Source: Leptolyngbya sp. FACHB-261 (GTDB lineage: Bacteria; Cyanobacteriota; Cyanobacteriia; FACHB-261). Taken from it: DNA of 64,000 bases. The number at the start of each line of letters is the position of its first letter. The stretch's first letter is position 1. Under the pieces are notes generated by a model. The model was not told the origin of the DNA. It saw only the letters and a program-made list of their open reading frames with translations, and did not search any database. Shown piece by piece: positions 15,494 to 63,367 of the stretch. The stretch spans positions 1 to 64,000 of the forward strand of contig NZ_JACJPL010000026.1 of assembly GCF_014696065.1 (NCBI RefSeq), written 5' to 3'. A program made the translations under genes and the position numbers.

Positions 15494-15975
15494 GCAAAAA
15501 GTATGCAAACCTACTTGCTAAACTCGGTGGAGTTCTGTAATCTTTATGGCTAACCTATCCGGTCAGCACCTAGTAGGAGTGAGGTCAACACTCCTACTAG
15601 GCTAACCCCCAAGCTGATTAGACCAGCCCGGAGGCTAGTGGGCAGTTTAACACTGCTATAACTCCCTCATTCTCTTTGGCGAAAGGTGCAAGGTGGCGCG
15701 GTGGGCTAGGGCTAGCGGGGTCCAAACTCGCTATCCCGTCAAACCCAATACCTCAAGGATTGACACCAATGTGGACAACATTTGGCACCCTTGCAAAAGG
15801 GGAGCGGTTTTACTTTGCGGGTCATGTGGCAGTGAAGTTGACGAGTGGCGGAATCAACACGCCCGGTCGCTTTATGTGGGATGGCGAGTCGGATCACGAT
15901 GGCTGGCAAATCTATAACGGCACACGCGTGCAAACCTGCACCTGTCCGCGAGAAATTGTAGAACCCGCTGAGGAG
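15494..15975 (+). repeat. Structured dispersed element, copy 1
   Basis: About 480 bp aligns with 60177-60660 across non-coding and coding parts. Two hairpins stand out in the non-coding part. The first, at 15569-15601, has CCTAGTAGGAGTG pairing perfectly with CACTCCTACTAGG around a 7-nt loop. The second, at 15709-15737, has GGGCTAGCGGG and CTCGCTATCCC with one mismatch. In the other copy the first has one mismatch and the second is perfect. A small stem GCAGT-TTAAC-ACTGC lies between them. A 72-residue ORF follows. The paired design suggests an RNA leader or a mobile unit. Function unknown. Confidence 0.75.
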
Positions 15976-15987
15976 GTCAGGTCATAA
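15769..15987 (+). CDS. Small conserved protein of unknown function, copy 1
   Basis: 72 residues from ATG 15769, starting MWTTFGTLAKGERFYFAGH and ending with CTCPRE and an acidic tail. A paralogue at 60450-60668 is nearly identical, and a decayed one lies at 29690-29815. Conservation at the protein level and silent changes between the two copies argue that it is translated. The order GERFYF, RFMWDGE, CTCP suggests a compact beta-rich fold with two close cysteines. An AAGGA precedes the ATG by about 10 nt. No named family is recognised. Confidence 0.65.
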   Translation: MWTTFGTLAKGERFYFAGHVAVKLTSGGINTPGRFMWDGESDHDGWQIYNGTRVQTCTCPREIVEPAEEVRS

Positions 15988-16337: not shown

Positions 16338-19300
16338 GTCGCAAAGAACCTAAATCCCTTTGAGGGATTGAAACGTCTACGGGACCAGCGCCACTAGCAT
16401 AAGCACCCGCGTCGCAAAGAACCTAAATCCCTTTGAGGGATTGAAACGCTACGGGATTGTGGGCTGCATCACAAAAAGCCCCCGTCGCAAAGAACCTAAA
16501 TCCCTTTGAGGGATTGAAACGGGACACCTCTATTTTAGGCCCGGACCTACTGCTGTCGCAAAGAACCTAAATCCCTTTGAGGGATTGAAACGCAAAAGAG
16601 CCAAGGCGATTGCGCTTAACTTGGCAGGTCGCAAAGAACCTAAATCCCTTTGAGGGATTGAAACTTGGCATTGCAATCAGCCCGCAATGAACCGGACGCG
16701 TCGCAAAGAACCTAAATCCCTTTGAGGGATTGAAACAGGTTGCGGCTGAGAGGTCCGAGGCTTGCGGCTTGGTCGCAAAGAACCTAAATCCCTTTGAGGG
16801 ATTGAAACGTTAGCCATTGCTGGGAGCCGCCAAGCTCCCAACAGGTCGCAAAGAACCTAAATCCCTTTGAGGGATTGAAACTGAAAGTGATTTGTTGAAT
16901 CACGATTACAGGTGGCTGTCGCAAAGAACCTAAATCCCTTTGAGGGATTGAAACATGACACCCATCTCACACTTGCCCTCTTCTACCCGAGAGTCGCAAA
17001 GAACCTAAATCCCTTTGAGGGATTGAAACGTAAAGGCTCACTCGACTACCTACCTAGCTATCCTGTCGCAAAGAACCTAAATCCCTTTGAGGGATTGAAA
17101 CCTGGCAGCGACACACAACCTAGGTCAGTCGCCTGTGGTCGCAAAGAACCTAAATCCCTTTGAGGGATTGAAACAGGCGTCACCTATCGCCCTGATAAAT
17201 ACGACTTGATGTCGCAAAGAACCTAAATCCCTTTGAGGGATTGAAACGGGGCACCGTAGGAGGGCAGACCGCGCCGCTAATGGTCGCAAAGAACCTAAAT
17301 CCCTTTGAGGGATTGAAACAGGCTGACTGCCAGCAACAGTTGACCGGCTCTGATCGTCGCAAAGAACCTAAATCCCTTTGAGGGATTGAAACCACACCCC
17401 AATCTCTTCTACTTCGAACTGCCAGGTCGCAAAGAACCTAAATCCCTTTGAGGGATTGAAACATCACTAACACAGTAGACCCTATCTGTGTCCCTGGTCG
17501 CAAAGAACCTAAATCCCTTTGAGGGATTGAAACCTTTAATGATGCTCGCGCTCGGTCCATCAACATTTGTCGCAAAGAACCTAAATCCCTTTGAGGGATT
17601 GAAACGAGGAAATCAATGCGCGACTCACTGAGGTTGGGCTTGTCGCAAAGAACCTAAATCCCTTTGAGGGATTGAAACATCGCCTGCGGAAGCTGTTTGT
17701 TTTGATGGTTCTGTCGCAAAGAACCTAAATCCCTTTGAGGGATTGAAACTGAATCAGGCTGAACACACTAGGGTGTGTAATGCGGTCGCAAAGAACCTAA
17801 ATCCCTTTGAGGGATTGAAACGTAGCGCTTGCCAAAGTGTGAGGCCAGCGCTGGCAGTCGCAAAGAACCTAAATCCCTTTGAGGGATTGAAACTTGGAGC
17901 GGGCGATTGTGAACATCGCTCGCCACTACGTCGCAAAGAACCTAAATCCCTTTGAGGGATTGAAACATCGTTGGTCGTGCCAACGATCACTGAATGCCTA
18001 GGGAGTCGCAAAGAACCTAAATCCCTTTGAGGGATTGAAACCATCCATTGATAAGCCCTTTCCGAAACCTCACCCCGTCGCAAAGAACCTAAATCCCTTT
18101 GAGGGATTGAAACGCTAACTTGTGTGTGGGCATATCGGAGGGATCTGGTCGCAAAGAACCTAAATCCCTTTGAGGGATTGAAACGTGATTTGCGCTTTCA
18201 AACCTTCGAATCATTTGCTGTCGCAAAGAACCTAAATCCCTTTGAGGGATTGAAACTGCTGTTCCTGCGATTCACGCATGATTCGCTTGAGCGTCGCAAA
18301 GAACCTAAATCCCTTTGAGGGATTGAAACTTTTCTGCATGTGGCGATGCAGAGTTTGAGGAGGATGTCGCAAAGAACCTAAATCCCTTTGAGGGATTGAA
18401 ACCTGACAGCGGGTGGATTGAACGCAAGCTGATGCGGTCGCAAAGAACCTAAATCCCTTTGAGGGATTGAAACATCTAAAGAACAATTCTCCCACTTGCC
18501 TTTGTAGTGTCGCAAAGAACCTAAATCCCTTTGAGGGATTGAAACTTCGTAAACTGCACGCCTAGCAGTTACATTGCGTGGAGTCGCAAAGAACCTAAAT
18601 CCCTTTGAGGGATTGAAACGCGTATTTACATCGAGGTCAAACCGGAGTTTCTCAGCCGTCGCAAAGAACCTAAATCCCTTTGAGGGATTGAAACTGATAA
18701 TCGCCTCCGCACCCCTCAAGGACCCCTAGGTCGCGAAGAACCTAAATCCCTTTGGGGGATTGAAACGGTATTGAGGCGATCGATAATCTCGGGCCTGTTC
18801 TGTCGCGAAGAACCTAAATCCCTTTGAGGGATTGAAACTTTACTGCGGGAAACTATCCGCCTCAGGCTCCAGCGAGTCGCGAAGAACCTAAATCCCTTTG
18901 GGGGATTGAAACTACAGCCGCTAGAATTGACGACTAACTCAGAAGTATCGCGAAGAACCTAAATCCCTTTGAGGGATTGAAACAATACCTGCCCACCCGT
19001 GAGAGGGGTACACTCCCTTGTTGCAAAGAACCTAAATCCCCCTGAGAGATTGAAACTCCAAACCCGAACCGACCGGAACCGGAGAAAATCGTCGCGAAGA
19101 GCCTAAATCCCTATGAGGGATTCAAACTCTCTAAGACTTCAGGGGGCGTCTGGTATGTACGTCGCGAAGAAGCTGAATCCCTATGAGGGATTGAAACGCT
19201 AGCCGATGGGTTCTAGGGCGCACTGGGAAGCTATCGCGACAAACCTAAATCCCTTTGAGGGATTGAAACCTGAATGTGGCGGGAAACCGCCAGAGTGACT

Positions 19301-20370
19301 TTAAGTCGCGAAGAACCTAAATCCCTTTGAGGGATTGAAACAGCTCTCTCACGATCCACTGGCCATCAGCACCGGCGTCGCAAAGAACCTAAATCCCTTT
19401 GAGGGATTGAAACGTCAAGCTCTACCTAGAGTCCGAGGTACATCGACGAGCAATGGCGAAGAACCTAAATCCCTTTGAGGGATTGAAACTTGATTGTTCA
19501 ATTATGACCTAGATTGCTGTTGGACATCGCGAAGAACCTAAATCCCTATGAGGGATTGAAACTCCTCATATGTGAAGCAGGCTGTACCCCTACTGCTATC
19601 GCGAAGAACCTAAATCCCTTTGAGGGATTGAAACCGCGCTGATACACCTAATTGCAAACGCACCCGAGCATCGCGAAGAACCTAAATCCCTCAAAGGGAT
19701 TGAAACATAACTAGCTTAAGTTGGATCAACTAGCGAAGGAAAATCGCGAAGACCCTAAATCCCTTTGAGGGATTGAAACTTGATTGTCCAATTGTGACCT
19801 AGATTGCTGTTGGACATCGCGAAGAACCTAAATCCCTTTGAGGGATTGAAACTGCACCTGGTCTTTGTTGGCTAGCTGGCGTAGGGCGTCGCAAAGAACC
19901 TAAATCCCTTTGAGGGATTGAAACATTTAAGCCTCCAATAAAAGTGTTAACTGTCCTTGTCGCAAAGAACCTAAATCCCTTTGAGGGATTGAAACGGGTC
20001 CCTCCAGGCCAACTACACCGATAAGTTGGCGTCGCGAAGAGCCTAAATCCCTTTGAGGGATTGAAACGGTGCTGCACTATTACCTGGGCTTTGCTACGCC
20101 CGAACGTCGCGAAGAACCTAAATCCCTTTGAGGGATTGAAACGGGATAACGCAGGCAGAGAAGCCAGAATCCCTGGGAGCTGGCGCGAGCAGGTCGCGAA
20201 GAAGCTGAATCCCTATGAGGGATTGAACCCAAGCATAAATTCAGGCATACTTTTAATATTTATCACGAAGAAACTGAATCCCTATGAGGGATTGAAACGT
20301 GCTGGCCCACAAGCTTCTGTTCAGCTCACAGAGGTCGCGACAAACCTAAATTCCTTTTGGGGATTAAAAG
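16338..20370 (+). CRISPR. CRISPR array 2: 56 repeats of 37 bp, 55 spacers
   Basis: I count 56 repeats from 16338 to about 20370, with a period near 72 bp. The repeat begins GTCGCAAAGAACC and ends GGGATTGAAAC. It shares its 3' hairpin with array 1 but differs in the 5' half. Repeats 1-33 appear identical. From 18730 on most copies drift (GTCGCGAAG, ATCGCG, AGCTGAATCCCTATG and others) and the last is strongly decayed, which marks the old end. One copy (19670) carries loop CAA instead of TTG, as if the hairpin top were inverted. Spacers at 19490-19525 and 19780-19815 are near duplicates. No dedicated cas genes flank it. Confidence 0.97.
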
Positions 20371-23873: not shown

Positions 23874-24033
23874 GCAACTGGACCTTGAAAACCAAATACA
23901 CCAAGCCTTCCAGCCGCCCACCATCGTGAAGAAGCTGAATCCCTATAAGGGACTGAACCAAGATGAGCGTTGGCGGGCAGGTGCTCAACAAGGGCAGTCG
24001 CGAAGAACCTAAATTCCTATGAGGGATTGAAAC
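23874..24033 (+). CRISPR. CRISPR relic: 33-bp leader piece plus two repeats and one spacer
   Basis: Positions 23874-23906 match the repeat-proximal part of the array 2 leader exactly. A degenerate repeat follows at 23923-23959 (ATCGTGAAGAAGCTGAATCC at its start, ACTGAACC at its end), then a 37-nt spacer (23960-23996) and a better repeat at 23997-24033 ending GGGATTGAAAC. The repeats resemble the drifted copies at the old end of array 2. It has no cas genes nearby and may be a decayed array or a natural mini-array giving one guide RNA. Confidence 0.85.
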
Positions 24034-40142: not shown

Positions 40143-40562
40143 TGCATTCGCCTTTGGCAGGCACATCGTGTTTAGCAACCGATTGAAGGTGTTGAGCAAT
40201 CGCGCTCTTTCCTCATTCACCAGTTGGTTGGTGAGTTCGTTCAAAACAAGCTCTTGCAGTCCGCTTGTTGGCAGTTGGTCAGCTCACTCATCGTCAATCA
40301 AACTCGCGCTCTGGGGCAGGGAATGACCGTTGCAAAGAACCTAAATCCCTTTGAGGGATTGAAACAGACGCCCTCTATAATTGCCCTTTTGATAGGGCAG
40401 TTGCAAAGAACCTAAATCCTTGATGTGTCATTGGTTGCACAATATTTCGTCCTCTTTGGAATTGGTCAGGCATAAGTGAGCAGGGAAGATGGCACAAGTA
40501 GATCACTAAAGCCACTGTTGCTAATGGCCTTAGATAATCTGCTCACCCACAGCAGGTTTACT
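40143..40562. other. Gap holding a CRISPR remnant
   Basis: No gene is supported here. The only structured content is the two-repeat CRISPR piece at 40329-40419, described separately. Short plus-strand frames crossing it are repeat translations. Confidence 0.6.
40329..40419 (+). CRISPR. CRISPR relic: one full and one truncated repeat
   Basis: A full repeat at 40329-40365 reads GTTGCAAAGAACC at its start and GGGATTGAAAC at its end, one base from the array 2 consensus. A 34-nt spacer (40366-40399) contains the hairpin TGCCCT-TTTGAT-AGGGCA. The second repeat (40400-40419) stops after AACCTAAATCC and then diverges. No leader is recognisable. It is a stranded fragment of an array-2-type CRISPR. 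Confidence 0.85.
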
Positions 40563-60176: not shown

Positions 60177-60660
60177 GCAAAAAGTATAGAGAGCCACTGG
60201 CTAAACTCAACAGAGTTCTGTAATCTCTTTGCTAACCTATCCGGTCAGCACCTAGTAGAAGTGCGATCTTCACTCCTACTAGGCTAACCCCCAAGCTGAT
60301 CACCCAGCCCGGAGGCTAGTGGGCAGTTTAACACTGCTATAACTCCCTCATTCTCTTTGGCGAAAGGTGCAAGGTGGCGCGGTGGGCCAGGGCTAGCGAG
60401 CTTCCAAACTCGCTAGCCCGTCAAACCCAATATCCCAGGATTGACACCGATGTGGACAACGTTTGGCACCCTTGCAAAAGGGGAGCGGTTTTACTTTGCG
60501 GGTCATGTGGCAGTGAAGTTGACGAGTGGCGGCATCAATACACCGGGCCGCTTTATGTGGGATGGCGAGTCAGACCATGAGGGCTGGCAGATCTACAACG
60601 GTACGCGAGTGCAAACCTGCACCTGTCCGCGAGAAACTGTAGAACCCGCTGAGGAGGTCA
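60177..60660 (+). repeat. Structured dispersed element, copy 2
   Basis: It aligns with 15494-15975 along almost its whole length. Hairpin 1 (60251-60283): CCTAGTAGAAGTG with CACTCCTACTAGG, one mismatch. Hairpin 2 (60390-60419): GGGCTAGCGAG with CTCGCTAGCCC, perfect over 11 bp. The 72-residue ORF follows. The differences between copies fall so that at least one copy forms each stem perfectly. The element lies upstream of the kinase gene, with a large gap between them. Confidence 0.75.
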
Positions 60661-60668
60661 AGCTATAA
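60450..60668 (+). CDS. Small conserved protein of unknown function, copy 2
   Basis: 72 residues from ATG 60450; a TTG three codons upstream gives a longer form. It matches the 15769 copy almost residue for residue (MWTTFGTLAKGERFYFAGH and CTCPRE), differing by D/E in SDHEGWQIY, I/T in CPRETVEP and the last two residues. The few amino-acid changes and many shared positions over 72 codons argue for a translated gene. No known family recognised. Confidence 0.65.
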   Translation: MWTTFGTLAKGERFYFAGHVAVKLTSGGINTPGRFMWDGESDHEGWQIYNGTRVQTCTCPRETVEPAEEVKL

Positions 60669-61360
60669 CTTAGTCTTTATTAGTCCATAACCTAGCCTTG
60701 AACTGTGCGCAGGCCACCTTCTTTAAGATTGGGGGCCATTAGATCAGTCAACGGCGAACCGGTTCACTAAGCACTGAATCTTGGGAACCCAAATACCACA
60801 AGCCGTAAGTTGTCCCCTAACAAGTCCCTAGCAAGTCCCGTGGGGCCTCCAAAGGAATTGACCTACAAGAGGAATGTATCAAGAATTACCTTGAGATGTG
60901 TTTCGAATTACACAAATCCCACAAGCATTGTCAAAATTCTGTTCAAGAATTTGCTCCAGCTTGAATTAGAGCGCATTTGCCGGAAAATCAATAACTTTTG
61001 CTAAAAATTAGCCCGCTAAGCTTGAACAACACCCTTAAATCTACCGAGAACTTAAAGGCTATGCCCCTGGCTTCTTAAAATTGCCCGTAGGAATACTGAG
61101 ATAACAAACGAAAGCTGCTCTACAACTCGTATTTGTACAGGGTGAACGAACCGTTAGCTCCTCTATGCTAGTGAAGCCCATTTGTAAGCCCTATCGCTCT
61201 ATTGCAACTGCCCTGTGAGTGGGTGCAAGCCCATTAGAAGAAAGAGCTTGCACCTTGAACTCTCCCAGGCAACTCACACCCAACAGCTGGCGGAAGACCG
61301 TCGACCAATGCCATTACCCTAATTGCCCTAGTTCTGGAAAAACTGCGGGGAGTGACAGCT
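60669..61360. other. Gap before the ETR-like kinase
   Basis: Almost 700 bp, AT-rich, with no gene or repeat recognised. The last part has GGGGAG with good spacing to GTG 61361. Confidence 0.5.
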
Positions 61361-63367
61361 GTGAGCTTTGCACAGAGCTTTCTCAACGACTTTTTGTGGT
61401 CGCGACAATTTGTTCCGCATGGGCACTGCTATCTGTGGAACCCAGGCTTGGTGTCGCTGCATGTTCTGGCAGATCTGCTGATTGCTCTGTCCTACTACGC
61501 AATTCCAATTGGCCTGCTCTCTTTCATTCAAAAACGGCGTGACGTACCCTTTCCGAGTATCTTCAGCCTGTTTGGTGCTTTTATTATCTGCTGCGGCACT
61601 ACACACCTGCTTGCAATCTGGACCCTCTGGCAGCCCAGCTATTGGCTATCCGGAAGTGTGAAGGCGGTAACAGCCGTCGTCTCTCTCTACACAGCACTGG
61701 AATTAGTGCCTCTTATTCCTCAAGCCCTAGCTCTGCCCAACCCAACCCAGCTTGCAACTGCCAACCAAGACCTACAAAACCAAATCGCTGAGCGTAAGCG
61801 AGCTGAGGCAGACCTGGAAAGCGCAAGGCAAGACCTAGAAATGCGAGTGCAGGAGCGCACCCTGCAATTGAGCCGCATCAACGAGTCCCTGCAGGTTGAA
61901 ATTACTGAGCGTAAGCGAGTAGAGCAAGCCCTACGCCAAAGTGAGGAGCGCTACCGCTCGCTGATTGAAGCCACTACTCAGATCATTTGGGATACCAATG
62001 CGGCTGGGGAGTTCGTGACTGAGCAGCCGAGTTGGAGCGCTTTTACCGGTCAAACCTATCCTGAAAGTGCAGGTTGGGGCTGGCTTGCGGCTATTCACCC
62101 AGAAGACCAACAGGATACCGCCCTGAAATGGTCAGCAGCAGTGCAACAGCGCGAACTCTATGAAGGTGAGCTTCGCCTGCAGCGACAGGATGGTGAATAT
62201 CGCCATATGAATGTCAGGGCGGTCCCAGTCTTAGAGCCTGACGGCAGCGTCCGAGAGTGGGTAGGATTTCAAACTGATATCACCCCTGCTAAGCAGGTGG
62301 AGGCGGAGCGAGCCCAACTGTTAGCCCGCGAACAGCTTGCCCGAGCCGAAGCTGAAGCCGCTCGACAGCAATTGGCGGCGATCTTTGAGACCTCACCGAT
62401 GGGCATTGCTCTACTAGACCAGCAGCAGCGATTTGTAGCGATTAATGAAGCACTGGCGGAGATCAATGGCATCAGTCGTGATCAACACCTGAGTCACTCA
62501 GTACCTGAGCTGTTTGCCGCTTCTGACCCTGCGATTGTTGAGCTATTTCAAATCCTTTACGCAACAGGCCAGCCGTTCATTGCGCCTGATATGCCAGCTA
62601 ATGTACCTGGGCGAGAAGACCGCCGCCCAGGCTTTTACAACGTTTATTATCTGCCCAGAACAGGGCCCAATCTGGAAGTTGAGAGCGTGCTGGTTTACGT
62701 CGTCGATGTCACTGAGCGGAAACAAGCAGAAGAACAAATCAAGGCATCACTTCGCGAAAAAGAAGTGCTGCTCAAAGAAGTGCATCACCGTGTCAAGAAC
62801 AACTTGCAGGTCATTTCTAGTCTGCTAAATCTTCAATCTGATCAGATTCAGGACTCACAGGCTCTTGAGGTGTTTAAGGAGAGCCAAAATCGCGTTAGAT
62901 CAATGGCACTGATTCACGAGAAGCTATACCAATCCAAACATCTTGCCAGCATTGATTTCTCTGACTACATTAGGAGCCTAACTGATACCCTGCTGCGTTC
63001 CTACGGCAACAGTGCTAATCGCATTGAGCTGAGCATGAGCGCGGGCGAAGTTCTCTTAGGTATTGATACCGCCATTCCCTTAGGTTTAATCATCAGCGAG
63101 CTTGTCTCTAATGCTTTAAAGCACGCCTTTACTGAGCAAGAACCGGGTATGATTCGGGTTGGGCTTCACAATGGCAGCAACAGCGAGCTAATGTTAACGG
63201 TCAGCGATAATGGTATTGGTCTGCCGAAGGATTTTGACTGGCAAAACTCAGAATCTTTAGGCTTGAGGCTAGTCAACGATTTAGCCGAGCAGCTGGACGG
63301 CAGCATTGAGTTCTGGAACGGCAATGGCACCACCTTTAAACTCACCTTCGCTGTGCATGAGCAATGA
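61361..63367 (+). CDS. Histidine kinase with ethylene-receptor-like N-terminus
   Basis: 668 residues from GTG 61361, chosen because GGGGAG lies 8 nt upstream; a GTG at 61352 is also in frame. The first ~120 residues have three membrane segments with the ethylene-receptor-like sequence [19 protein letters not shown], whose Cys and His bind copper in ETR1. Coiled-coil and two or three PAS domains follow (for example [19 protein letters not shown]). A HisKA_2/HWE-type dimerisation motif [20 protein letters not shown] and an HATPase ([14 protein letters not shown]) end the protein. A response regulator starts 37 bp downstream. Confidence 0.92.

Follow-up and report, generated by a model that had tools for sequence, protein, structure and literature searches.

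A dispersed structured leader RNA with two hypervariable loops, carried ahead of unrelated small genes in cyanobacteria

The DNA analysed here (the window) is a stretch of 64,000 nucleotides from Leptolyngbya sp. FACHB-261 (contig NZ_JACJPL010000026.1, positions 1 to 64,000). It carries two full copies of a unit composed, in this order, of a promoter, a structured leader RNA and a small open reading frame (ORF). The initial annotation, made from the letters alone, had described a duplicated element with two long hairpins, a conserved 72-aa ORF and a decayed third copy, and had suggested either a structured leader RNA and its gene or a small mobile unit. The duplication of about 490 bp is real. 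The stem of the 13-bp hairpin is flawless in copy 1 and carries one mismatched pair in copy 2; copy 2 in turn has a flawless 11-bp hairpin, and the 72-aa ORF is indeed conserved, differences between the two copies being mostly synonymous. The third copy stood only in part: a portion of the ORF survives, and the RNA was detected there by neither of our two covariance models (R1 and R2, described below). The features are the following, with hairpins numbered P2 to P4 as in the RNA family.

15494-15987, plus strand: copy 1, comprising promoter, leader RNA and family A ORF; it shares 90% identity with copy 2, and homology stops near these limits
15515-15543, plus strand: copy 1 sense promoter, TTGCTA, 17 nt, TAATCT
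15564-15674, plus strand: copy 1 RNA core (114 bits with R1, 99.9 bits with R2)
15569-15601, plus strand: copy 1 hairpin P2, 13-bp stem, all stem pairs covarying in the 104-match alignment
15582-15588, plus strand: copy 1 P2 apical loop AGGTCAA, hypervariable among copies
15602-15637, plus strand: copy 1 conserved core CTAACCCCCAA ... GGAGGCTA, including hairpin P3 (GCTG/CAGC with outer CC/GG pairs)
15617-15623, plus strand: copy 1 P3 apical loop ATTAGAC, hypervariable among copies
15644-15654, plus strand: copy 1 element P4, AGTTTAACACT
15644-15652, minus strand: copy 1 proposed antisense extended -10 motif TGTTAAACT (TGnTAnnnT)
15709-15737, plus strand: copy 1 3' hairpin ahead of the ORF (its 11 bp are perfect in copy 2)
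15769-15987, plus strand: copy 1 family A ORF, 72 aa
29670-29810, plus strand: family A ORF remnant without RNA, unmatched by R1 and R2
60177-60668, plus strand: copy 2 of the unit
60198-60226, plus strand: copy 2 sense promoter, TGGCTA, 17 nt, TAATCT
60246-60355, plus strand: copy 2 RNA core, matched by R1 and R2
60264-60270, plus strand: copy 2 P2 loop CGATCTT
60299-60304, plus strand: copy 2 P3 loop ATCACC
60325-60333, minus strand: copy 2 proposed antisense extended -10 motif TGTTAAACT
60390-60419, plus strand: copy 2 3' hairpin, GGGCTAGCGAG / CTCGCTAGCCC
60450-60668, plus strand: copy 2 family A ORF

Covariance model R1 was built from a first leader alignment and R2 on 104 sequences. In the Leptolyngbya sp. 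FACHB-261 genome, R1 recovered 75 copies and R2 77, two of them weak, with a best E-value of about 1e-28; E-values are rough (short-calibrated models) and most matches score 45-100 bits. The repeat is far beyond chance. As the genome-wide search found the same leader ahead of unrelated ORFs as well, what the copies have in common is the leader rather than the ORF. Most copies have a promoter pair comparable to that of the window copies, at -48 to -53 or -82 to -95.

The search that the initial annotation had recommended also revealed conserved pairing. In the RNAalifold consensus of 18 leaders, 16 of the 18 pairs were changed on both sides, as were 18 of 21 pairs in independent genomes. Since the alignments of matches are fitted to the model, we gave more weight to slid and shuffled controls than to these raw counts. 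The covariation score of the 104 matches was 0.585, compared to 0.220 after shuffling and at most 0.10 with slid partners, and it was 0.461 compared to 0.157 in the control for 61 matches from other genomes, a set that excludes two of the five R2 source genomes. Using Rfam 15 (cmscan at the gathering score), no family was assigned to the window unit or to 20 loci of several clades, and for the window unit a permissive E-value gave nothing but a chance mir-28 match. The conditions under which the initial annotation would have been refuted (no conserved pairing, or identity with a known RNA or the end of an insertion sequence, IS) thus did not overturn it. Without an Rfam match, and undescribed in the open-access literature searched (subscription papers lying outside that search), this RNA class appears to be new.

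In most lineages the RNA is closed by a long-range stem, P1, for example CCCAAAAATTAAGGC with GCTTTAATTTTTGGG. P1 was assessed by a contiguous-helix test with swapped partners, duplexfold being uninformative over long stretches. Native and swapped scores in four groups were 10.1 and 7.2, 13.6 and 11.6, 11.9 and 8.9, and 11.3 and 8.2, respectively. Minimum-energy folds of seven single sequences (genomes G507, G567 and G463) all placed P2, P3, P4 and P5 within P1. In many copies P1 has an A-run on the 5' side and a U-run on the 3' side, so that a U-tract can follow P5 in the sense RNA and P2' in an antisense RNA; in many copies of other genomes the U-rich 3' strand lies behind P5.

The gene behind the RNA is remarkably constant in position and variable in nature. 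Downstream on the same strand, 74 of the 75 copies examined have a member of one of five unrelated families of small proteins, as expected for a leader with its gene, and no member of these families was found upstream of the RNA in the flanks taken. The first gene belongs to family A, that of the 72-aa protein, at 8 loci, to family B at 47, to C at 9, to D at 9 and to E at 1; about 35 of the 47 family B loci have D behind, and family E is the usual partner in other genomes. With at least five unrelated ORF families using the same leader, the 72-aa ORF is not the defining part of the unit. No ORF protein gave a match above curated cut-offs in Pfam, PHROGs, NCBIfam or PADLOC; below them, family D is winged-helix-like and family B begins with a helix-turn-helix-like segment. 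The AlphaFold prediction (mean confidence score pLDDT) was poor for family A (58) and confident for family B (86), the latter without significant structural match. Searching genome contigs for family A alone gave no relative.

A search of 257 Gb of bacterial and archaeal genomes with a DNA pattern of the core gave 58 loci, every one cyanobacterial (Microcoleus, Tychonema, Lyngbya, Elainella, Leptolyngbyaceae, Coleofasciculus and others), and viral contigs gave none. R2 matched 108 of the 390 genomes of the class, over a quarter, and 54 of 160 genera, many genomes showing at least 9 copies among the matches listed; fuller counts are 75 copies in G507, 40 in G463, 24 in G567 and 23 in G065. The units behave as small mobile ones, the other suggestion of the initial annotation: in many pairs of copies 90-98% identical, the similarity runs from about the -35 box to the end of the ORF and no further, the flanks being unrelated; some such pairs share longer flanks. 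In G031, near-identical units start at the -35 box TTGACG or within tens of bases of it. There is no transposase within the unit, and no consistent terminal inverted repeats or target duplications were seen at unit ends, which were checked by eye only.

Comparison of close copies revealed that two loops escape this general conservation. Across 17 independent close pairs, 48 of 106 positions (45%) differ in the P2 loop and 89 of 164 (54%) in the P3 loop, compared to 75 of 1606 (4.7%) in the remaining RNA and 209 of 2550 (8.2%) in the flanks (p 1.5e-62). The result was replicated with 24 pairs from four other genomes: 84 of 164 positions (51%) for P2 and 130 of 212 (61%) for P3, against 169 of 2279 (7.4%) in the remaining RNA and 505 of 3600 (14%) in the flanks (p 1.4e-72). 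Loops of unequal length were scored as different at every position, so that the percentages are somewhat inflated; the effect is the same in equal-length pairs. G031 copies whose flanks diverge by 1-1.5% have an RNA core identical outside the P2 and P3 loops. In the genomes sampled, each copy has its own pair of loops: among 3309 within-genome pairs drawn from 143 copies, none shares both loops, 17 share P2 and 18 share P3, and 32 of the 38 pairs with less than 10% flank divergence differ in both. Both loops are mostly 7 nt long, and the P2 loop follows the rule Y-U-R-N-N-A-(A/C), with U in 98 of 121, which is U-turn-like. U-turns are a known feature of antisense recognition loops.

Partners of the loops were sought in several places. 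Complementarity between P2 and P3 loops inside one RNA was not in excess, no loop complement was found in the remaining transcript over about 400 nt, and pairing between loops of different copies was absent, if anything slightly depleted. Loops acting as guides to flanking DNA, in the manner of an IS110-type bridge RNA, were also considered and rejected, loop 6-mers not being significantly enriched over swapped loops. We favour the reading that the complementary strand itself would be the partner, for which no separate search is needed. The most conserved stretch past P3 is A-NNN-TA-N-CA in P4, and the opposite strand reads TGnTAnnnT. In this motif T1 is conserved at 95%, A2 at 99% and T6 at 97%, the TG at 85% and 92%, and the n of TGn much less. 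It is present in 86 of 100 copies compared to 2.2 expected after shuffling, and in 24 of 24 copies from G507 and G065. This -10-like motif is thus a predicted extended -10 promoter, placed and directed in such a way that it would yield an RNA of both variable-loop hairpins.

These observations can be assembled into a model in which the unit would be a gene cassette, dispersed and regulated in cis. From a sigma70-type promoter of its own it would give a leader of 150-200 nt, folded in most lineages as a closed junction where P1 holds P2, P3, P4 and P5, with the small ORF next. From the extended -10 promoter in P4, a short antisense RNA of P3' and P2' would be made on the opposite strand. The P2 and P3 loops, mostly 7 nt, would serve as specificity tags: the antisense RNA would recognise its own leader through kissing loops, then pair fully, and full pairing would prevent P1 and favour the P5 hairpin with its U-tract (transcription attenuation), or block translation. 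As sense and antisense RNAs would share one DNA, a single loop mutation would alter both partners at once and create a new pair that does not cross-react. With up to about 77 copies per cell, selection for independence from sister copies might then push the loops apart, as in plasmid incompatibility. We are about half convinced of this reading, control of the leader by a cis-encoded antisense RNA over P2/P3 through loop-loop kissing in the style of plasmid copy control, with loops diverging against cross-talk.

Several observations weigh against it. In the clade of the window itself P1 is weak (6.75 native, 6.11 swapped), and a simple terminator scan left P5 unflagged at the two loci tested. 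Clade f13 (G567, G463) has lost the TG of the antisense motif, a TAnnnT-like hexamer remaining in most copies; the -35 region is G-rich, and an A-run of at least 5, which would provide an antisense U-tract, occurs in only 24 of the first 100 copies. P4 can itself form a hairpin, so that its conservation may serve the sense RNA. Finally, loci whose upstream flanks are orthologous differ in their loops too, so that loop change is not triggered by duplication alone. In a broader formulation, which we find rather unlikely, mobile promoter-RNA-ORF units would have spread across cyanobacteria and some process would diversify their loops copy by copy into dozens of mutually exclusive recognition tags, serving as trans-acting guides or as self/non-self tags and not as simple antisense targets.

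Other explanations account for some of these features. The conserved unpaired core, the promoter, the same-strand gene, P1 and the U-rich 3' strand behind P5 are all compatible with a riboswitch-like leader, where the core (CTAACCCC ... GGAGGCTA) would bind a small molecule or a protein and toggle P1 versus P5, the loops being unconstrained. Unconstrained loops do not account for 45-61% of change next to 1-14% in the flanks, nor for a fixed loop length and a U-turn-like rule, and dozens of copies ahead of unrelated small genes would be unusual; we hold a riboswitch to be improbable. We see similarly little chance that the leader is processed to a free, trans-acting RNA whose two loops would bind other RNAs or DNA with the small proteins as partners. 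Loops that differ in near-identical copies and at orthologous loci leave no conserved target, and they are unmatched in flanking DNA, even though the predicted closed fold is stable (-56 to -81 kcal/mol), the loops are U-turn-like and the protein families are retained behind the RNA.

Many copies, small ORFs and a predicted antisense RNA could also evoke type I toxin-antitoxin systems, the ORFs being toxins and the antisense RNA the antitoxin. This is very unlikely: the proteins are unlike the small hydrophobic type I toxins, families B and D resemble DNA-binding folds, and family searches gave no toxin or defence match. The loops might finally be altered at the DNA level, by a process targeted to hairpins during replication or transposition and with no role in recognition. 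Such hypermutability would fit the G031 copies, where entire loops change beside identical flanks, and the changes at orthologous loci. It would not explain why just two of four hairpins vary, why loop length is mostly held at 7 nt together with the U-turn-like rule, or why both loops are never common to two copies of one genome, and we give it a very small chance.

The surroundings of the units deserve some remarks. An array of clustered regularly interspaced short palindromic repeats (CRISPR), long and with 48 repeats within 3 mismatches (window 16338-20142), starts about 350 bp behind copy 1, and lone repeats lie outside it at 23997-24033 and 40329-40365. The same intervening sequence, followed by a CRISPR array, is found behind the related copy at C26:538k, so that the unit and the array start were probably duplicated together. 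At that locus (L027), an array of 30 repeats of a variant type occupies 265-2608 (C26, about 535.8-538.1k), and the third family A copy (C26:538459-538748) is broken, consisting of a truncated, stop-bearing ORF and, behind it, a second partial copy. A short distance downstream of copy 2 lies a 671-codon ORF (61352-63367). In G567, a separate dispersed repeat of about 200 bp (L265, 78-306) is located upstream of a unit and has many matches in several genomes of that genus. Degenerate tandem repeats of about 21 bp, such as GTTCTGAGGTCAAAGTTTC stretches, often adjoin units (flanks of L023, L048, L100, L034 and L035). Family E proteins were also encountered on Nostocales plasmids (L212 to L215), near ParG and replication genes on Trichormus variabilis plasmid D (L212); RNA of this class was not found with these plasmid copies.

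This RNA class is abundant, with 77 copies in one genome and 75 in another, and near-identical copies differing only in two short loops allow the divergence of RNA-RNA specificity to be followed as a natural experiment. Should the antisense model be true, each genome would hold dozens of ready-made orthogonal RNA regulators, such as synthetic biology has built by hand (PMC3753616), and a plasmid-style incompatibility logic would shape chromosomal gene families.

The unit probably operates on a known principle, here in a new setting. The nearest parallels are the antisense attenuators of pT181 and pIP501 (repC and repR leaders), which share with the unit a structured leader ahead of an ORF, a cis-antisense RNA with kissing loops (here predicted) and a putative alternative pairing that could release a terminator-like hairpin. 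Attenuation in pT181 works through kissing hairpins, and orthogonal variants of it had to be engineered (PMC3753616). In contrast, the units described here are chromosomal, reach about 77 copies per genome, precede five unrelated small gene families with no replication gene, and have two hypervariable loops and an antisense RNA that is predicted only. In CopA/CopT of plasmid R1 and in ColE1 RNAI/RNAII, the loop sets specificity, as proposed here, and is free to diverge as sense and antisense mutate together; these systems govern plasmid replication and are unrelated in sequence (no Rfam match). Among cyanobacteria, leaders before short ORFs of no known family are also found with the downstream-peptide and glnA RNAs (RF01704, RF01739; PMC2864571), from which the present class differs by its lack of an Rfam match even at a permissive threshold, its hypervariable loops and its dispersed multi-copy units. 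Kissing control has been proposed for ssr7036/asRNA1 of the Synechocystis 6803 plasmid pSYSA, where a small cyanobacterial ORF is again accompanied by an abundant antisense RNA; there, the antisense RNA covers coding sequence beside a rep gene, whereas here it would cover the leader (PMC9978351).
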